DNA from: an uncultured Actinomycetes bacterium
Lineage (GTDB): Bacteria > Actinomycetota > Acidimicrobiia > Acidimicrobiales > Microtrichaceae
NCBI GenBank assembly: GCA_903868545.1
Contig: CAIPVR010000293.1
Location: 1-62,971 of the forward strand
DNA length: 62,971 nt
Direction: 5' to 3'
Under the pieces are notes generated by a model. It ran no database searches and was not told the origin of the DNA. It saw nothing but the letters and a program-made list of their open reading frames with translations. A program made the translations under genes and the position numbers. Below are positions 32,905-37,227 of the stretch, piece by piece. Position 1 is the first letter of the stretch, and every line of letters begins with the position of its first letter.

Positions 32905-34557
32905 CTACCCGTCGGCGTGGAGGAGCCCGAAGACGAGGCCCTCGGTGAGGGCGTGCCACGACGCCTCGATGATGTTCGGGCTCACACCGGTGGTGGTCCA
33001 GGTGCGCTCGCCGTCGGCGAAGTCCACCAGCACCCGCACCACCGCCCCGGTGTCGGACAGGCCGGGGCCGGCCGCGGCATCGAGCACCCGCACCCGGAAA
33101 TCGGTCAGGTGGATGGACCCGAGCGCCGGGTACCGGCCGTCGAGCGCCGAGCGCAGGGCGGCGTCGAGGGCGTTGACGGGACCGTTGCCCTCTCCCACCG
33201 CGGCCAGGCGCTCACCGTCGACCCACAGCTTCACGGTGGCCTCGGTGGCCAGGTCCACCTCACCGGTGGCGGTCGCCGGCCCCTCGCGGTGGTACGAACT
33301 CACCCGGTACGCCTCCACGGTGAAGAACTCGTGCTCCCACCCGACGGCCCGGCGCATCAGCAGCTCGAGCGAGGCGTCCGCGGCCTCGAACACGTAGCCC
33401 TCGGCCTCGAGCACCTTCAGCCGTTCGGAGACCTCCGCCGCGGCCCGGGCGTCGAGTTCCACGCCGAACTCGGCCGCCTTCATGGCCATGCCCGCCCGGC
33501 CGCCCAGGTCCGACACCAGCACCCGCGTGCGGTTGCCCACGGCCGCGGGGTCGATGTGCTCGTAGCTGGCGCCACCCACCTTGCCCAGCGCGGACGTGTG
33601 GAGGCCGCCCTTGTGCGCGAACGCGGAGGACCCCACGTACGGGTCCGCCGGGTGCGGCGGCAGGTTCACGAGCTCGGCCACGTGTCGGCTCACCGCGGTG
33701 AGGCGCTCCATACGGCCCTCGGGCAGCGTGCGCACGCCCAGCTTGAGGGTCAGGTCCGGGATGACCGTCATGAGGTTGGCGTTGCCGGTGCGCTCGCCGT
33801 AGCCGTTCACCGTCCCCTGCACCTGGGTGGCACCGCCGACCACCGCGGCGACGGTGTTGGCCACCGCGCAGCCACTGTCGTTCTGAGTGTGGATGCCCAC
33901 CGAGGTGCCCTCGAAGTAGGAGACGACCTCCGCGGTGACGCGCTGCACCTGGTGCGGCAGCGACCCGCCGTTCGTGTCGCACAGCACGAGGCAGTCGGCG
34001 CCACCCACCGCCGCAGCCTCCAGCACCTTCAACGCGTACTCGGGGTTGGCCCGGTAGCCGTCGAAGAAGTGCTCGGCGTCGAAGAACACCCGCAGGCCCT
34101 CACCGACGAGGAAGCGCACCGATTCCCCCACCATCGCGAGCCCCTCCGAGAGGGTGGTGCCCAGCGCCTCGGTCACGTGGAAGTCCCAGCTCTTGCCGAC
34201 GATGCACACCGTCGACGTGCCGGCCCCCACCAGCGCTCGGAGGGTGGGGTCGTCATCCACCTTGCCGGCCGGGCGGCGGGTGGACCCGAACGCCACCAGC
34301 GTGGAGGTGGACAGCGCGAGCTCACCGGCGGCGGCCCGCCGGAAGAACTCCTGGTCCTTCGGGTTGGCCTGCGGGTACCCGCCCTCGATCCAGGCCACGC
34401 CGAGCCAGTCGAGCTGCTCCGCCACACGGAGCTTGTCCTCCACGGTGAGCGAGATGCCCTCGAACTGGGCGCCGTCGCGCAGGGTCGTGTCGAACACGTC
34501 GACGGCCTCCGGCAGCCCCGGGGAGCCGCCCACCTCGGGCAGCGGACCGGCGGTCAT
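32905..34557 (-). CDS. cimA: (R)-citramalate synthase
   Basis: The enzyme condenses pyruvate with acetyl-CoA to (R)-citramalate, the entry to the threonine-independent route to isoleucine. The 550-residue protein has the DRE-TIM barrel with VDVFDTTLRDGAQFEGISLT, ARG-type GGYPQANPKD, VGIHTQNDSGCAVANT (metal His) and GTVNGYGERTGNANL. The C-terminal LeuA-type dimer/allosteric domain includes LGSIHLTDFRVRVLD. Length and the GAQFEGISLT variant match the CimA (TIGR00977) subgroup rather than LeuA or homocitrate synthase. ATG at 34555-34557, 16 bases after ilvE, in the leuB-ilvE-cimA operon. End-product control by isoleucine is expected from the C-terminal domain. Confidence 0.9.
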   Translation of the reverse strand: MTAGPLPEVGGSPGLPEAVDVFDTTLRDGAQFEGISLTVEDKLRVAEQLDWLGVAWIEGGYPQANPKDQEFFRRAAAGELALSTSTLVAFGSTRRPAGKVDDDPTLRALVGAGTSTVCIVGKSWDFHVTEALGTTLSEGLAMVGESVRFLVGEGLRVFFDAEHFFDGYRANPEYALKVLEAAAVGGADCLVLCDTNGGSLPHQVQRVTAEVVSYFEGTSVGIHTQNDSGCAVANTVAAVVGGATQVQGTVNGYGERTGNANLMTVIPDLTLKLGVRTLPEGRMERLTAVSRHVAELVNLPPHPADPYVGSSAFAHKGGLHTSALGKVGGASYEHIDPAAVGNRTRVLVSDLGGRAGMAMKAAEFGVELDARAAAEVSERLKVLEAEGYVFEAADASLELLMRRAVGWEHEFFTVEAYRVSSYHREGPATATGEVDLATEATVKLWVDGERLAAVGEGNGPVNALDAALRSALDGRYPALGSIHLTDFRVRVLDAAAGPGLSDTGAVVRVLVDFADGERTWTTTGVSPNIIEASWHALTEGLVFGLLHADG

Positions 34558-34573
34558 GGCTGTCCCGTCGGGT

Positions 34574-35491
34574 TCATGCGACCAGCTCCACCCAGTCCTT
34601 GTGGCGCTCCACCTGGCCGCGCACCACACGCGCGTACTCGGCGGCGATGGCCGTCGTCACCGGACCGGGACACGGGATCGTGCGGTCGTCGACGGAGTTC
34701 ACCGCAGAGATCTCCGCTGCCGTGCCGCAGACGAACATCTCGTCGCAGGTGTAGAGGTCGGAGCGGGTGAGGTCGCCCTCCACGCACTCCACCCCCATCT
34801 CGGCGAGCAGGGTGGCCACGGTGTCCTGCGTGATGCCCTCGAGCGCACCGGCCGACTGCGGCGGCGTGATCGCCCTCCCGTTCCGGAGCACGAAGATGTT
34901 CTCGCCGGTGCACTCCGACACGAGCCCGGCCGGGTTCAGCATGATCCCCTCGTCGTAGCCGGCTCGCAGCGCCTCGACCTTGGCGAGCGACGAGTTGACG
35001 TAGTTGCCCGTGGTCTTCGCCGCCGGCGGCATCGCATTGTGGTCGTGACGGAGCCACGTGCTGATCTTCATGCGCACGCCCTTGGTCAGGGCGTCGTCGC
35101 CCAGGTAGGCCCCCCAGGGCCAGCAGGCGATCGCCACGTCCACCGAGCACGGCAGCGTGTTCAGGCCCATCTCGCCGTAGCCGAAGTAGGCGATCGGCCG
35201 GATGTAGCAGGACGGCAGGCCGGAGTCGCGCACCACCAGCTTGGTGGCCTCCACCAGCTCGTCGACGGAGTACGGCATCTCCATCCCCATGATCTTCGCC
35301 GACTGGTGCAGCCGGGCCATGTGCTCGGTGAGGCGGAACACGCCCGCGCCGTCGGGCGTCTCATAGGCGCGGATCCCCTCGAACACACCCATGCCGTAGT
35401 GGAGGGTGTGGGTGAGGACGTGCACGTTGGCCCGGTCCCAGGGGACGAGCTCGCCGTTCATCCAGATGTGCTCGGTCGGGGTGATGGGCAT
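34574..35491 (-). CDS. ilvE: branched-chain amino-acid aminotransferase
   Basis: This PLP fold-IV transaminase (305 residues) performs the last step of valine, leucine and isoleucine synthesis. It opens with the family signature IWMNGELVPWDRANVHVLTHTLHYG. The Schiff-base lysine is Lys159 in MPPAAKTTGNYVNS. Downstream are GYDEGIMLNPAGLVSECTGENIF and LEGITQDTV, which bind the cofactor phosphate. It follows leuB by 41 bases and precedes cimA by 16, in one operon with a regulated leader. Confidence 0.95.
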   Translation of the reverse strand: MPITPTEHIWMNGELVPWDRANVHVLTHTLHYGMGVFEGIRAYETPDGAGVFRLTEHMARLHQSAKIMGMEMPYSVDELVEATKLVVRDSGLPSCYIRPIAYFGYGEMGLNTLPCSVDVAIACWPWGAYLGDDALTKGVRMKISTWLRHDHNAMPPAAKTTGNYVNSSLAKVEALRAGYDEGIMLNPAGLVSECTGENIFVLRNGRAITPPQSAGALEGITQDTVATLLAEMGVECVEGDLTRSDLYTCDEMFVCGTAAEISAVNSVDDRTIPCPGPVTTAIAAEYARVVRGQVERHKDWVELVA

Positions 35492-35532: not shown

Positions 35533-36528
35533 TCAGCTCGCCACGGCCGCGGCGACGGCGTCGCCGATCCCGGAGGTGGACCCGGAGTAGCGCTCCGGCC
35601 GTTCACACGCGGCCGCCACGCGTGACGCGGCGTCGGACTCGCCGAGGAACTCGAGCATGAGCCCGGCCGACACGATGGCGGCGATCGGGTTGGCCTTCTG
35701 CTGACCGGCGATGTCGGGGGCGGTGCCGTGCACCGGCTCGAACATGGACGGACCGGTACGGGCCGGGTTGAGGTTGGCGGAGGCCGCGTAGCCCACGCCG
35801 CCCGCCACCGCACCGCCGAGGTCGGTGAGGATGTCACCGAAGAGGTTGTCGGTGACGATCACGTCGTAACGCTCGGGCCGCTCCACGAAGTGGATGCAGG
35901 CGGCGTCGATGTGGTCGTAGCCGGTGCTCACGTCGGGGTACTCGGCGGCCACCTCGTCGAAGGTGCGCTGCCACAGGTCGCCCGCGAACGTCAGCACGTT
36001 CTTCTTGTGGATCAGGTGCAACTGGTGGCGCTCGGAGTTGCGGGCCCGCTCGAAGGCGAACCGCACGCAGCGCTCCACCCCCATGCGGGTGTTGACCGAG
36101 CCCTGGGTGGCGATCTCGTGCGGCGTGCCCTTCCGGAGGAACCCGCCCTCGCCCGCGTAGGTGCCCTCGGTGTTCTCCCGGATCACCTCGCAGTCGATGC
36201 GGGGCGGGAGCCGGAAGGGCCGGAAGTTGATGTACTGGTCGAGCTCGAAGCGCATCCGCAGGAGGATCCCCCGCTCCACCAGCCCGGGGGGTGCGGCCAC
36301 ACCCGGGGCCGGGTCGCCCACGGCGCCGAGCAGCAGCGCGTCGAGGCCCCGCCACTCCTCGAGGACCTCGTCGGGCAGCACGGTGCCGTCCTCGAGGTAC
36401 CGGTGCGCGCCGAGGTCGTAGTCCGTGCGCTCGTAGGTCACGCCGGCGGCGTCCACCACCTTGAGGGCCTCGGCCACCACCTCGGGGCCGATCCCGTCAC
36501 CGCCGATCACGCCGATCCTGTGGGTCAT
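35533..36528 (-). CDS. leuB: 3-isopropylmalate dehydrogenase
   Basis: This NAD-dependent beta-decarboxylating dehydrogenase (331 residues) acts in leucine synthesis and, in the citramalate route, on 3-methylmalate. Visible family motifs are [31 protein letters not shown] (substrate Arg residues), [42 protein letters not shown] and [18 protein letters not shown]. It is the first structural gene after the attenuator, whose T-tract ends 19 bases before its ATG. Compact length is normal for the actinobacterial form. Confidence 0.96.
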
Positions 36529-36547: not shown

Positions 36548-36578
36548 AAAAAGAAAACCGTCCACGAGGGGTGGACGG
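36548..36578 (-). terminator. intrinsic terminator in the leuB leader (attenuator)
   Basis: On the minus strand the leader transcript forms a perfect eight-base stem CCGTCCAC/GTGGACGG (36571-36578 with 36558-36565) with a five-base loop. TTTTCTTTTT (36548-36557) follows immediately. Such an A/T run is unique in this GC-rich window. It lies between the leader peptide stop and leuB, so it can only end transcription before the operon: an attenuator, not a gene-end terminator. Confidence 0.9.
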
Positions 36579-36584
36579 TGGGAC

Positions 36585-36607
36585 GCGCACGCGGGAGCCG
36601 CGTGCGC
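36585..36607 (-). promoter_or_regulatory. leader hairpin at the stop codon of the leader peptide
   Basis: A perfect nine-base inverted repeat GCGCACGCG/CGCGTGCGC with a five-base loop begins on the last base of the leader's TAG stop codon and ends six bases before the terminator stem. A ribosome near the end of the leader peptide would cover its first arm, so folding of this hairpin should report ribosome position. How it exchanges with the terminator stem is not resolved by eye. Confidence 0.75.
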
Positions 36608-36678
36608 TAGAGAATCACTACGACGTTGCCGGCGGTGCCGGGGACGTTGCCGGCGGTGCCGGTCCGATGCGTCGACAT
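36607..36678 (-). CDS. branched-chain amino-acid leader peptide
   Basis: This is a 23-codon open frame from ATG 36676-36678 to TAG 36607-36609. It begins MSTHRTGT, contains a repeated GTAGNV block and ends NVVVIL. The last codons are GTC GTA GTG ATT CTC: three Val, one Ile, one Leu. GTA and ATT are conspicuously AT-ended for this genome, so ribosomes should stall there when branched-chain aminoacyl-tRNAs run short. A hairpin starts at the stop codon and an intrinsic terminator follows 30 bases later, before leuB. A TACAGT -10 lies seven bases before the ATG, implying a leaderless transcript beginning at the peptide. Confidence 0.88.
   Translation of the reverse strand: MSTHRTGTAGNVPGTAGNVVVIL
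36622..36663. repeat. 21-base tandem duplication inside the leader peptide
   Basis: Two adjacent 21-base units (36622-36642 and 36643-36663) differ only in the last base. They encode the repeated TAGNV-P/G segment of the leader peptide, keeping the reading frame. Confidence 0.85.
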
Positions 36679-36685
36679 GGCGGCC

Positions 36686-36691
36686 ACTGTA
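36686..36691 (-). promoter_or_regulatory. -10 box of the leuB-ilvE-cimA operon
   Basis: TACAGT on the minus strand, preceded by TGG (extended -10 form TGnTACAGT), ends seven bases before the leader-peptide ATG. No strong -35 is seen. The greA promoter, TACGCT at 36739-36744, faces the other way about 50 bases off. Confidence 0.6.
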
Positions 36692-36753: not shown

Positions 36754-37227
36754 ATGGCGAACGAGCACCACCTCTCCCAGGCCGCCCACGACCGCCTGAG
36801 CGCCGAGCTCGAGCAGCTCCGCACCGTCGGCCGTGTCGAGATGGCCGACCGGATCGAGCGGGCCCGTGAGCACGGCGATCTGAAGGAGAACGCCGAGTAC
36901 CACGCCGCCAAGGAGGAGAAGGCGAAGATGGAGGCCCGGGTCGCCAAGATCGCCGGGATCCTCGAGAACGCCGTCATCGTCGAGGGCTCGGAGTCCGGCG
37001 GCAGGGTCGCCACCGGCAGCGTGGTCACGCTCCGCTACGAGGGCGACGACGAGACCGAGGTGGAGAGATACCTGGTGGGCTCCATCGAGGAGCGCCACGA
37101 CGACCTCGAGGTGGTCTCGCCCCAGTCGCCGCTCGGTGAGGCGCTCATCGGCGCTGAGGTGGGCGCCACCGTGGAGTACGCCGGGCCGGCCGGGACGCTG
37201 CGGGTCGAGGTCGTCGACATCGAGTGA
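36754..37227 (+). CDS. greA: transcription elongation factor GreA
   Basis: GreA rescues backtracked RNA polymerase by stimulating transcript cleavage through the secondary channel. The 157-residue protein has the usual two domains. The N-terminal coiled coil is SQAAHDRLSAELEQLRT through AREHGDLKENAEYHAAKEEK, whose tip carries the conserved acidic DLKENAEY. The C-terminal FKBP-like domain has EVERYLVGSIEERHD and SPLGEALIGAEVGATVEY. It is divergent from the branched-chain leader and monocistronic, ending at a strong hairpin. Confidence 0.96.
   Translation: MANEHHLSQAAHDRLSAELEQLRTVGRVEMADRIERAREHGDLKENAEYHAAKEEKAKMEARVAKIAGILENAVIVEGSESGGRVATGSVVTLRYEGDDETEVERYLVGSIEERHDDLEVVSPQSPLGEALIGAEVGATVEYAGPAGTLRVEVVDIE

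Follow-up and report, generated by a model that had tools for sequence, protein, structure and literature searches.

A probable ribosome-mediated attenuator before leuB-ilvE-cimA in an acidimicrobial genome, and a recurrent actinobacterial layout with a hairpin opening in the leader stop codon

The window analysed here, a contiguous stretch of 62,971 nucleotides, carries on its minus strand an operon consisting of leuB (3-isopropylmalate dehydrogenase family, 35533..36528), ilvE (branched-chain amino acid transaminase, 34574..35491) and cimA (citramalate synthase, 32905..34563, with an uncertain start codon), which score above the cut-offs of the NCBIfam models NF002898, TIGR01122 and TIGR00977, respectively. 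Upstream of leuB on the same strand lies a leader element with a -10 box, a leader frame, a hairpin (hp1), a linker and an intrinsic terminator in that order. The box, TACAGT (36686..36691), stands seven bases upstream of the ATG at 36678, from which a leader peptide frame of 23 codons runs to a TAG stop (36607..36678). The frame ends in GTC GTA GTG ATT CTC TAG (36624-36607), with Val Val Val Ile at codons -5 to -2, counted back from the stop (36613..36624), and Leu at codon -1 (36610..36612). The hp1 hairpin, GCGCACGCGG-CTC-CCGCGTGCGC (36585..36607), has ten pairs, and its first base is the G of the leader TAG. It is separated by a linker of five bases (36580..36584) from the terminator (36548..36579), which comprises a stem of nine pairs, ACCGTCCAC-CCCTC-GTGGACGGT, at 36579-36557 and then TTTTCTTTTT ending at 36548. 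The leuB start, at 36528, lies 19 bases past the end of the T run. The box, its gap, the 23-codon frame, the VVVIL ending and the distance to leuB are just as an earlier note on this DNA had described them, and the two stems that it had seen at the stop codon and before the T run are also present, but with ten and nine pairs rather than nine and eight.

Folding of this stretch of the window, as the earlier note had proposed, returns exactly two hairpins there, hp1 and the terminator; in the fold of the 150-nt leader these are accompanied by small upstream hairpins, with a z of -2.9 relative to 200 dinucleotide shuffles. A covariance model built from leuB elements, the window element being in its training set, recovers the site in its own genome with E = 2e-15 and has no other match below E = 0.1 in that genome. 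The leader frame contains an 18-base direct repeat with a period of 21 (36660-36643 and 36639-36622, minus strand; GTAGNVP), which accounts for a leader longer than the 12-codon median of its relatives. A greA-like frame at 36754-37227 on the plus strand is divergent from the leuB operon, and several relatives have upstream regions resembling this divergent layout. The reading frame past the leader TAG stays open and in register with leuB (36609-36528, minus strand). Stop-codon read-through into leuB was considered and rejected, as the stop-leuB distance in one relative (L004) is 130 nt, no multiple of three; since this spacing is not kept in relatives, the open frame is probably a chance occurrence.

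Among 54 leuB upstream regions (window included) drawn from 61 genomes, the element is found before leuB in 38. It is missing in the remaining 16, which counts against the attenuator reading; among these is the closest LeuB (L003, 89% identical), which yet lacks the element and has just a promoter-like TACGAT ahead of leuB. The named contigs with the element belong to Acidimicrobiales, Microthrixaceae, Candidatus Microthrix, Ferrithrix and the marine MedAcidi lineages, by which the window's genome is placed among the Acidimicrobiia. A DNA pattern specifying the stop codon, the hp1 base and the 5' arm of the terminator, with no reference to any sense codon or gene, matched 65 genome stretches, 60 of which have leuB no more than 1.6 kb downstream; of the other five, four (with Pontibacter, Dyella and Actinomyces represented) look like chance matches, and the fifth is a truncated contig. 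The covariance model of leuB elements has matches in 191 of 296 genomes of the class. Across 34 aligned elements, 94.9% of the cells in hp1 and the terminator are paired, a fraction that none of 500 shuffles reached and that falls to 55% or less in slid versions of the alignment. Changes on both sides of a pair occur in 11 of the 19 pairs, including seven of the eight in the main helix of hp1, and this covariation supports hp1 as predicted from sequence. The terminator stem is conserved in sequence beyond the need for pairing, down to a U-G wobble. The earlier note had held that a lack of conservation of the leader frame or terminator in relatives would speak against an attenuator; in the leuB upstream regions both are conserved and hp1 covaries. 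One genome (G038, family f7; loci L042 and L076) has a cimA with its own Ile-only attenuator and a leuB without one, as if the switch there followed the operon layout.

The start of the leader frame was characterised from the statistics of the box. A TANNNT motif lies 5-9 nt upstream of 68 of 295 in-frame ATG or GTG codons (23%) as against 4 of 350 out-of-frame ones (1.1%), and its spacing to the start peaks at seven bases. In its strict form the box occurs in 60 of the 96 leuB elements, and few of those at ilvB or cimA have it; the leaders with a strict box have a median length of 12 codons, many being of 10-12 codons. A leaderless start is supported by these statistics, and translation of the leader is inferred from the conservation of its frame. 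The earlier note's view of such a start as unusual fares less well, as leaderless leader peptides are already known in attenuators of Corynebacterium glutamicum (PMC11857589) and Streptomyces (PMC8079986).

We tallied the codons at positions -5 to -2 before the stop in 145 elements grouped by the downstream gene. In leuB elements these positions are Ile in 50%, Val in 27% and Leu in 2% of cases; in cimA elements Ile makes up 83%; in ilvB elements Val accounts for 51%, Leu for 34% and Ile for 13%. The single examples at leuA and leuS, viewed apart from this tally, have Leu control codons. Codon identity at -5 to -2 tracks the downstream pathway. A branched-chain codon stands at -2 in 139 of the 145 elements and at -1 in 14, with -1 being free to vary, such that the CTC of the window is likely incidental and probably no sensor; of the Val, Ile and Leu stalling codons proposed earlier, the Val and Ile positions hence stand on their conservation, while the final Leu does not. 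The leader stop is TAG in 141 of the 145. The control codons are dominated by GTA and ATT, which are absent from the 117 Val and 41 Ile codons, respectively, of leuB, ilvE and cimA, bearing out the rarity remarked on in the earlier note. The comparison strongly supports codon sensing by a stalled ribosome.

The architecture is not confined to leuB. When run on 396 genomes of the phylum, the leuB-element model also finds elements upstream of ilvB and cimA, and a model of the ilvB elements matches in 100 of these 396 genomes, its weaker matches including leuA-like genes of two types and leuS, as recognised from sequence. The window's own genome has three elements. Besides that of the leuB operon with its Val Val Val Ile, there is one before ilvB (L215, G000:C118:529-613, plus strand, leader from about 511) in which a leaderless MRELNVLLVVP, with sensors Leu Leu Val Val and a TGA stop, is followed by a hairpin and a terminator. 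The third (L220, G000:C298) precedes a yeast-type leuA-like frame and consists of MTAANGLLLT, with sensors Leu Leu Leu, a TAG at the hairpin and then a terminator. Within the phylum, one genome shows a Leu-codon version ahead of a leuS-like gene (L267, G250:C96, and L266, the latter at a contig end), and a Trp-codon version before trpE was found in none of 30 relatives. Weak matches of the models, for the most part with E above 0.005, resembled ordinary terminators and were set aside.

The sensing of amino acids by attenuation through translation of a leader is a textbook principle. With a probability of about 0.83, we read the element as a ribosome-mediated transcription attenuator before leuB-ilvE-cimA, as the earlier note had suggested; this reading gains support from the conservation of the leader frame, control codons, hp1 and terminator and from the way the codons follow the downstream pathway. 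Transcription would begin with the A of the leader's start codon, the leaderless frame then being translated by a 70S ribosome, as suggested by the box spacing and known actinobacterial cases. Given enough charged tRNA, the ribosome would reach the TAG and cover the 5' arm of hp1; the terminator, some 30 nt away, would then form and transcription would stop. When Ile or Val runs short, the ribosome would stall on the rare codons at -5 to -2, presumably with read-through into leuB-ilvE-cimA. In this scheme the operon is most likely read only when isoleucine or valine is scarce.

Pairing of the terminator 5' arm with upstream RNA was predicted for nine ribosome positions, the first well ahead of the stop and the last past it, in three gene contexts and with a shuffled-arm control. 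It never rose clearly above the control at any of these positions in any context. The 3' arm hardly paired upstream, the exceptions being some leuB sequences in which hp1 was masked. The terminator is predicted to form over all ribosome positions with a mean probability of 0.80-0.98; the low value, which counts against the scheme above, arises in leuB elements with hp1 masked to stop+9, where the mean drops to 0.80. The predicted folds are thus alike for the stalled and unstalled states and offer no pairing that would explain the ON state. The antiterminator pairing, which the earlier note had left unresolved, is therefore absent as far as pairing predictions go. Further, since leaders are often of 10-12 codons, a stall leaves hardly any RNA free behind the ribosome, and with no arm pairing above control, hp1 is the only structure that depends on the ribosome position. 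The linear distance from the stop to the terminator averages 30.9 nt (sd 1.5) in leuB, 30.6 in cimA and 34.4 in ilvB elements, with a range of 27-45, and shrinks to about 3-5 nt across a folded hp1. Data from E. coli show a terminator being repressed by a ribosome that stands at a stop codon a few bp away, with maximal termination once the distance exceeds 30 bp (PMC4824070).

Together, these distances and the E. coli proximity data suggest a further step in which hp1 serves as a ruler. A folded hp1 would shorten the path such that the stalled ribosome adjoins the terminator and interferes with it. A ribosome at the stop, by contrast, would melt hp1 and thereby leave the terminator far enough away to form; with a stall at -5 to -2, hp1 would stay folded in whole or in part. 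Sensor codons are rare at -1, a position at which a stalled ribosome would melt hp1, in keeping with an ON state that needs hp1. Against this stands a distance, roughly 16 nt by a hand count, between the terminator and the A site of the stalled ribosome when hp1 is folded, which is at the margin of the 10-15 nt considered enough for free folding of a terminator (PMC4824070). We regard this step as tentative, at clearly less than even odds. The wider proposal of a phylum-wide class of attenuators without an antiterminator, wherein the hairpin nested in the stop codon is a folding ruler, the stalled ribosome is itself the antiterminator and the ribosome at the stop melts the ruler to free the terminator, is one that we regard as doubtful.

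One alternative is that hp1 itself is the antiterminator, in the position that the M. tuberculosis ilvB1 model gives to its own: a free hp1 would block the terminator without a ribosome, either through crowding or because it folds fast, and would be masked once a ribosome stood at the stop. By the footprint in PMC13236596, hp1 would be intact with the ribosome at -4 or further upstream and masked with it at the stop, which, along with the avoidance of codon -1 for sensors, agrees with this idea, but hp1 and the terminator share no bases, are joined by linkers of 0-7 nt and fold together in prediction, making it unlikely on balance. Another is that a conventional antiterminator was missed, be it a pseudoknot, a tertiary contact, a protein factor (NusA or NusG, for example), or a pairing outside the modelled segment. 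The conservation of the terminator stem beyond its pairing need could be read this way, and C. glutamicum ilvB has a short antiterminator overlapping its terminator (PMC11857589); however, upstream pairing of both arms is at, below or trivially above the shuffled control in all three gene contexts, and short leaders leave little RNA for it, so that we find this improbable too. That hp1 instead helps the terminator as the first of tandem hairpins, with a stalled ribosome opening its base and weakening termination, is suggested by its position 0-7 nt ahead of the terminator and by the opening of its base that a stall at -2 would cause; nevertheless, hp1 would be opened further by a stall at -1, a position where branched-chain codons are rare, and also by a ribosome that has reached the stop codon, rendering this decidedly unlikely. 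Finally, the readings without an attenuator, either a simple terminator (or the end of a small RNA) next to a frame that arose by chance or a riboswitch sensing a free amino acid, are very hard to reconcile with a conserved frame that starts leaderless and has codons tracking the pathway, with loops free to vary around no conserved aptamer core, and with an Rfam search that gave no family above threshold.

Returning to the ribosome-mediated attenuator, the leader shares with the trp/his/ilv type a short frame with codons for the pathway product and an intrinsic terminator between the leader and the first gene, but lacks a mutually exclusive antiterminator, as neither terminator arm pairs above control. 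It hence appears to work like a ribosome-mediated attenuator, with the classical two-state type not being supported by the modelled pairing. In the Rfam comparison, which covered the T-box, the ppGpp riboswitch and the ilv/leu leaders, the best hit was an unrelated sRNA family with 20.2 bits against a threshold of 52. Branched-chain leader peptides with terminators were described before ilvB in Corynebacterium, Mycobacterium and Streptomyces, their mode of regulation being left unclear there (Seliverstov 2005, PMC1262725). Like these, the window has an actinobacterial short frame with Ile, Val or Leu codons near a terminator; unlike them, as described, it has a separate hairpin opening in the stop codon, and one design is seen at the leuB operon, cimA, ilvB, leuA and leuS, where that account has one design for ilvB and others for leuA and leuS, though the two ilvB sets may overlap in part. 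In the LEU element, as presented there, a run of Leu codons pairs with the leuA Shine-Dalgarno in a pseudoknot (PMC1262725); the window has no Leu codon run and has an intrinsic terminator instead.

The Corynebacterium ilvB-II and C. glutamicum ilvBNC leaders likewise have a branched-chain leader peptide (leaderless in C. glutamicum), an upstream hairpin and an intrinsic terminator, but their P1 hairpin spans the leader frame, and the antiterminator involves the P1 loop or overlaps the terminator base (PMC10272879, PMC11857589). By that published description the window is set apart: hp1 starts at the stop codon, no such pairing or overlap is found, and the gene is leuB. The M. tuberculosis ilvB1NC leader resembles it in having Leu, Val and Ile control codons, including GUA, and in that a ribosome at the stop versus the control codons decides the outcome, but differs in its gene and, by the published model, in a proposed mutually exclusive antiterminator and terminator (PMC13236596). 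There, the change of LVVI to AAAA abolishes induction, which is experimental support for such sensor codons in an actinobacterial leader. The IlvL and LeuL leaders of Streptomyces lividans, found before ilvB, leuA and leuS, are also leaderless with branched-chain codons, but IlvL (MRTRILVLGKRVG) has five codons between the control codons and the stop, as opposed to one here (PMC8079986). In E. coli tR2 constructs, discussed with reference to pyrBI, a nearby ribosome suppresses a terminator without an antiterminator; there the ribosome closely trails the RNA polymerase to the terminator, whereas here it would stall upstream with a hairpin in between (PMC4824070). Our literature search found no publication joining leader peptide, Acidimicrobiia and attenuation.

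The layout described here thus recurs across actinobacteria without the usual opposing RNA fold, and the sets recovered by the leuB and ilvB models bear on a gap noted since 2005, that of leaders in actinobacteria which have control codons and a terminator yet show no antiterminator. Should the ruler step be true, attenuation could do without competing RNA folds and manage with leaders about ten codons long. The arrangement is, moreover, a simple signature by which switches of this kind could be sought in GC-rich genomes, and it shows the rare codons GTA and ATT chosen as sensors. At its margins are two loci of family f45 (L262, G154:C101, and L264, G082:C2), which match the ilvB model with E of about 0.001-0.002 and have a similar leader, hairpin and terminator, their leaders being without a run of branched-chain codons; the frame downstream of L262 is presumably an isocitrate lyase-like one.
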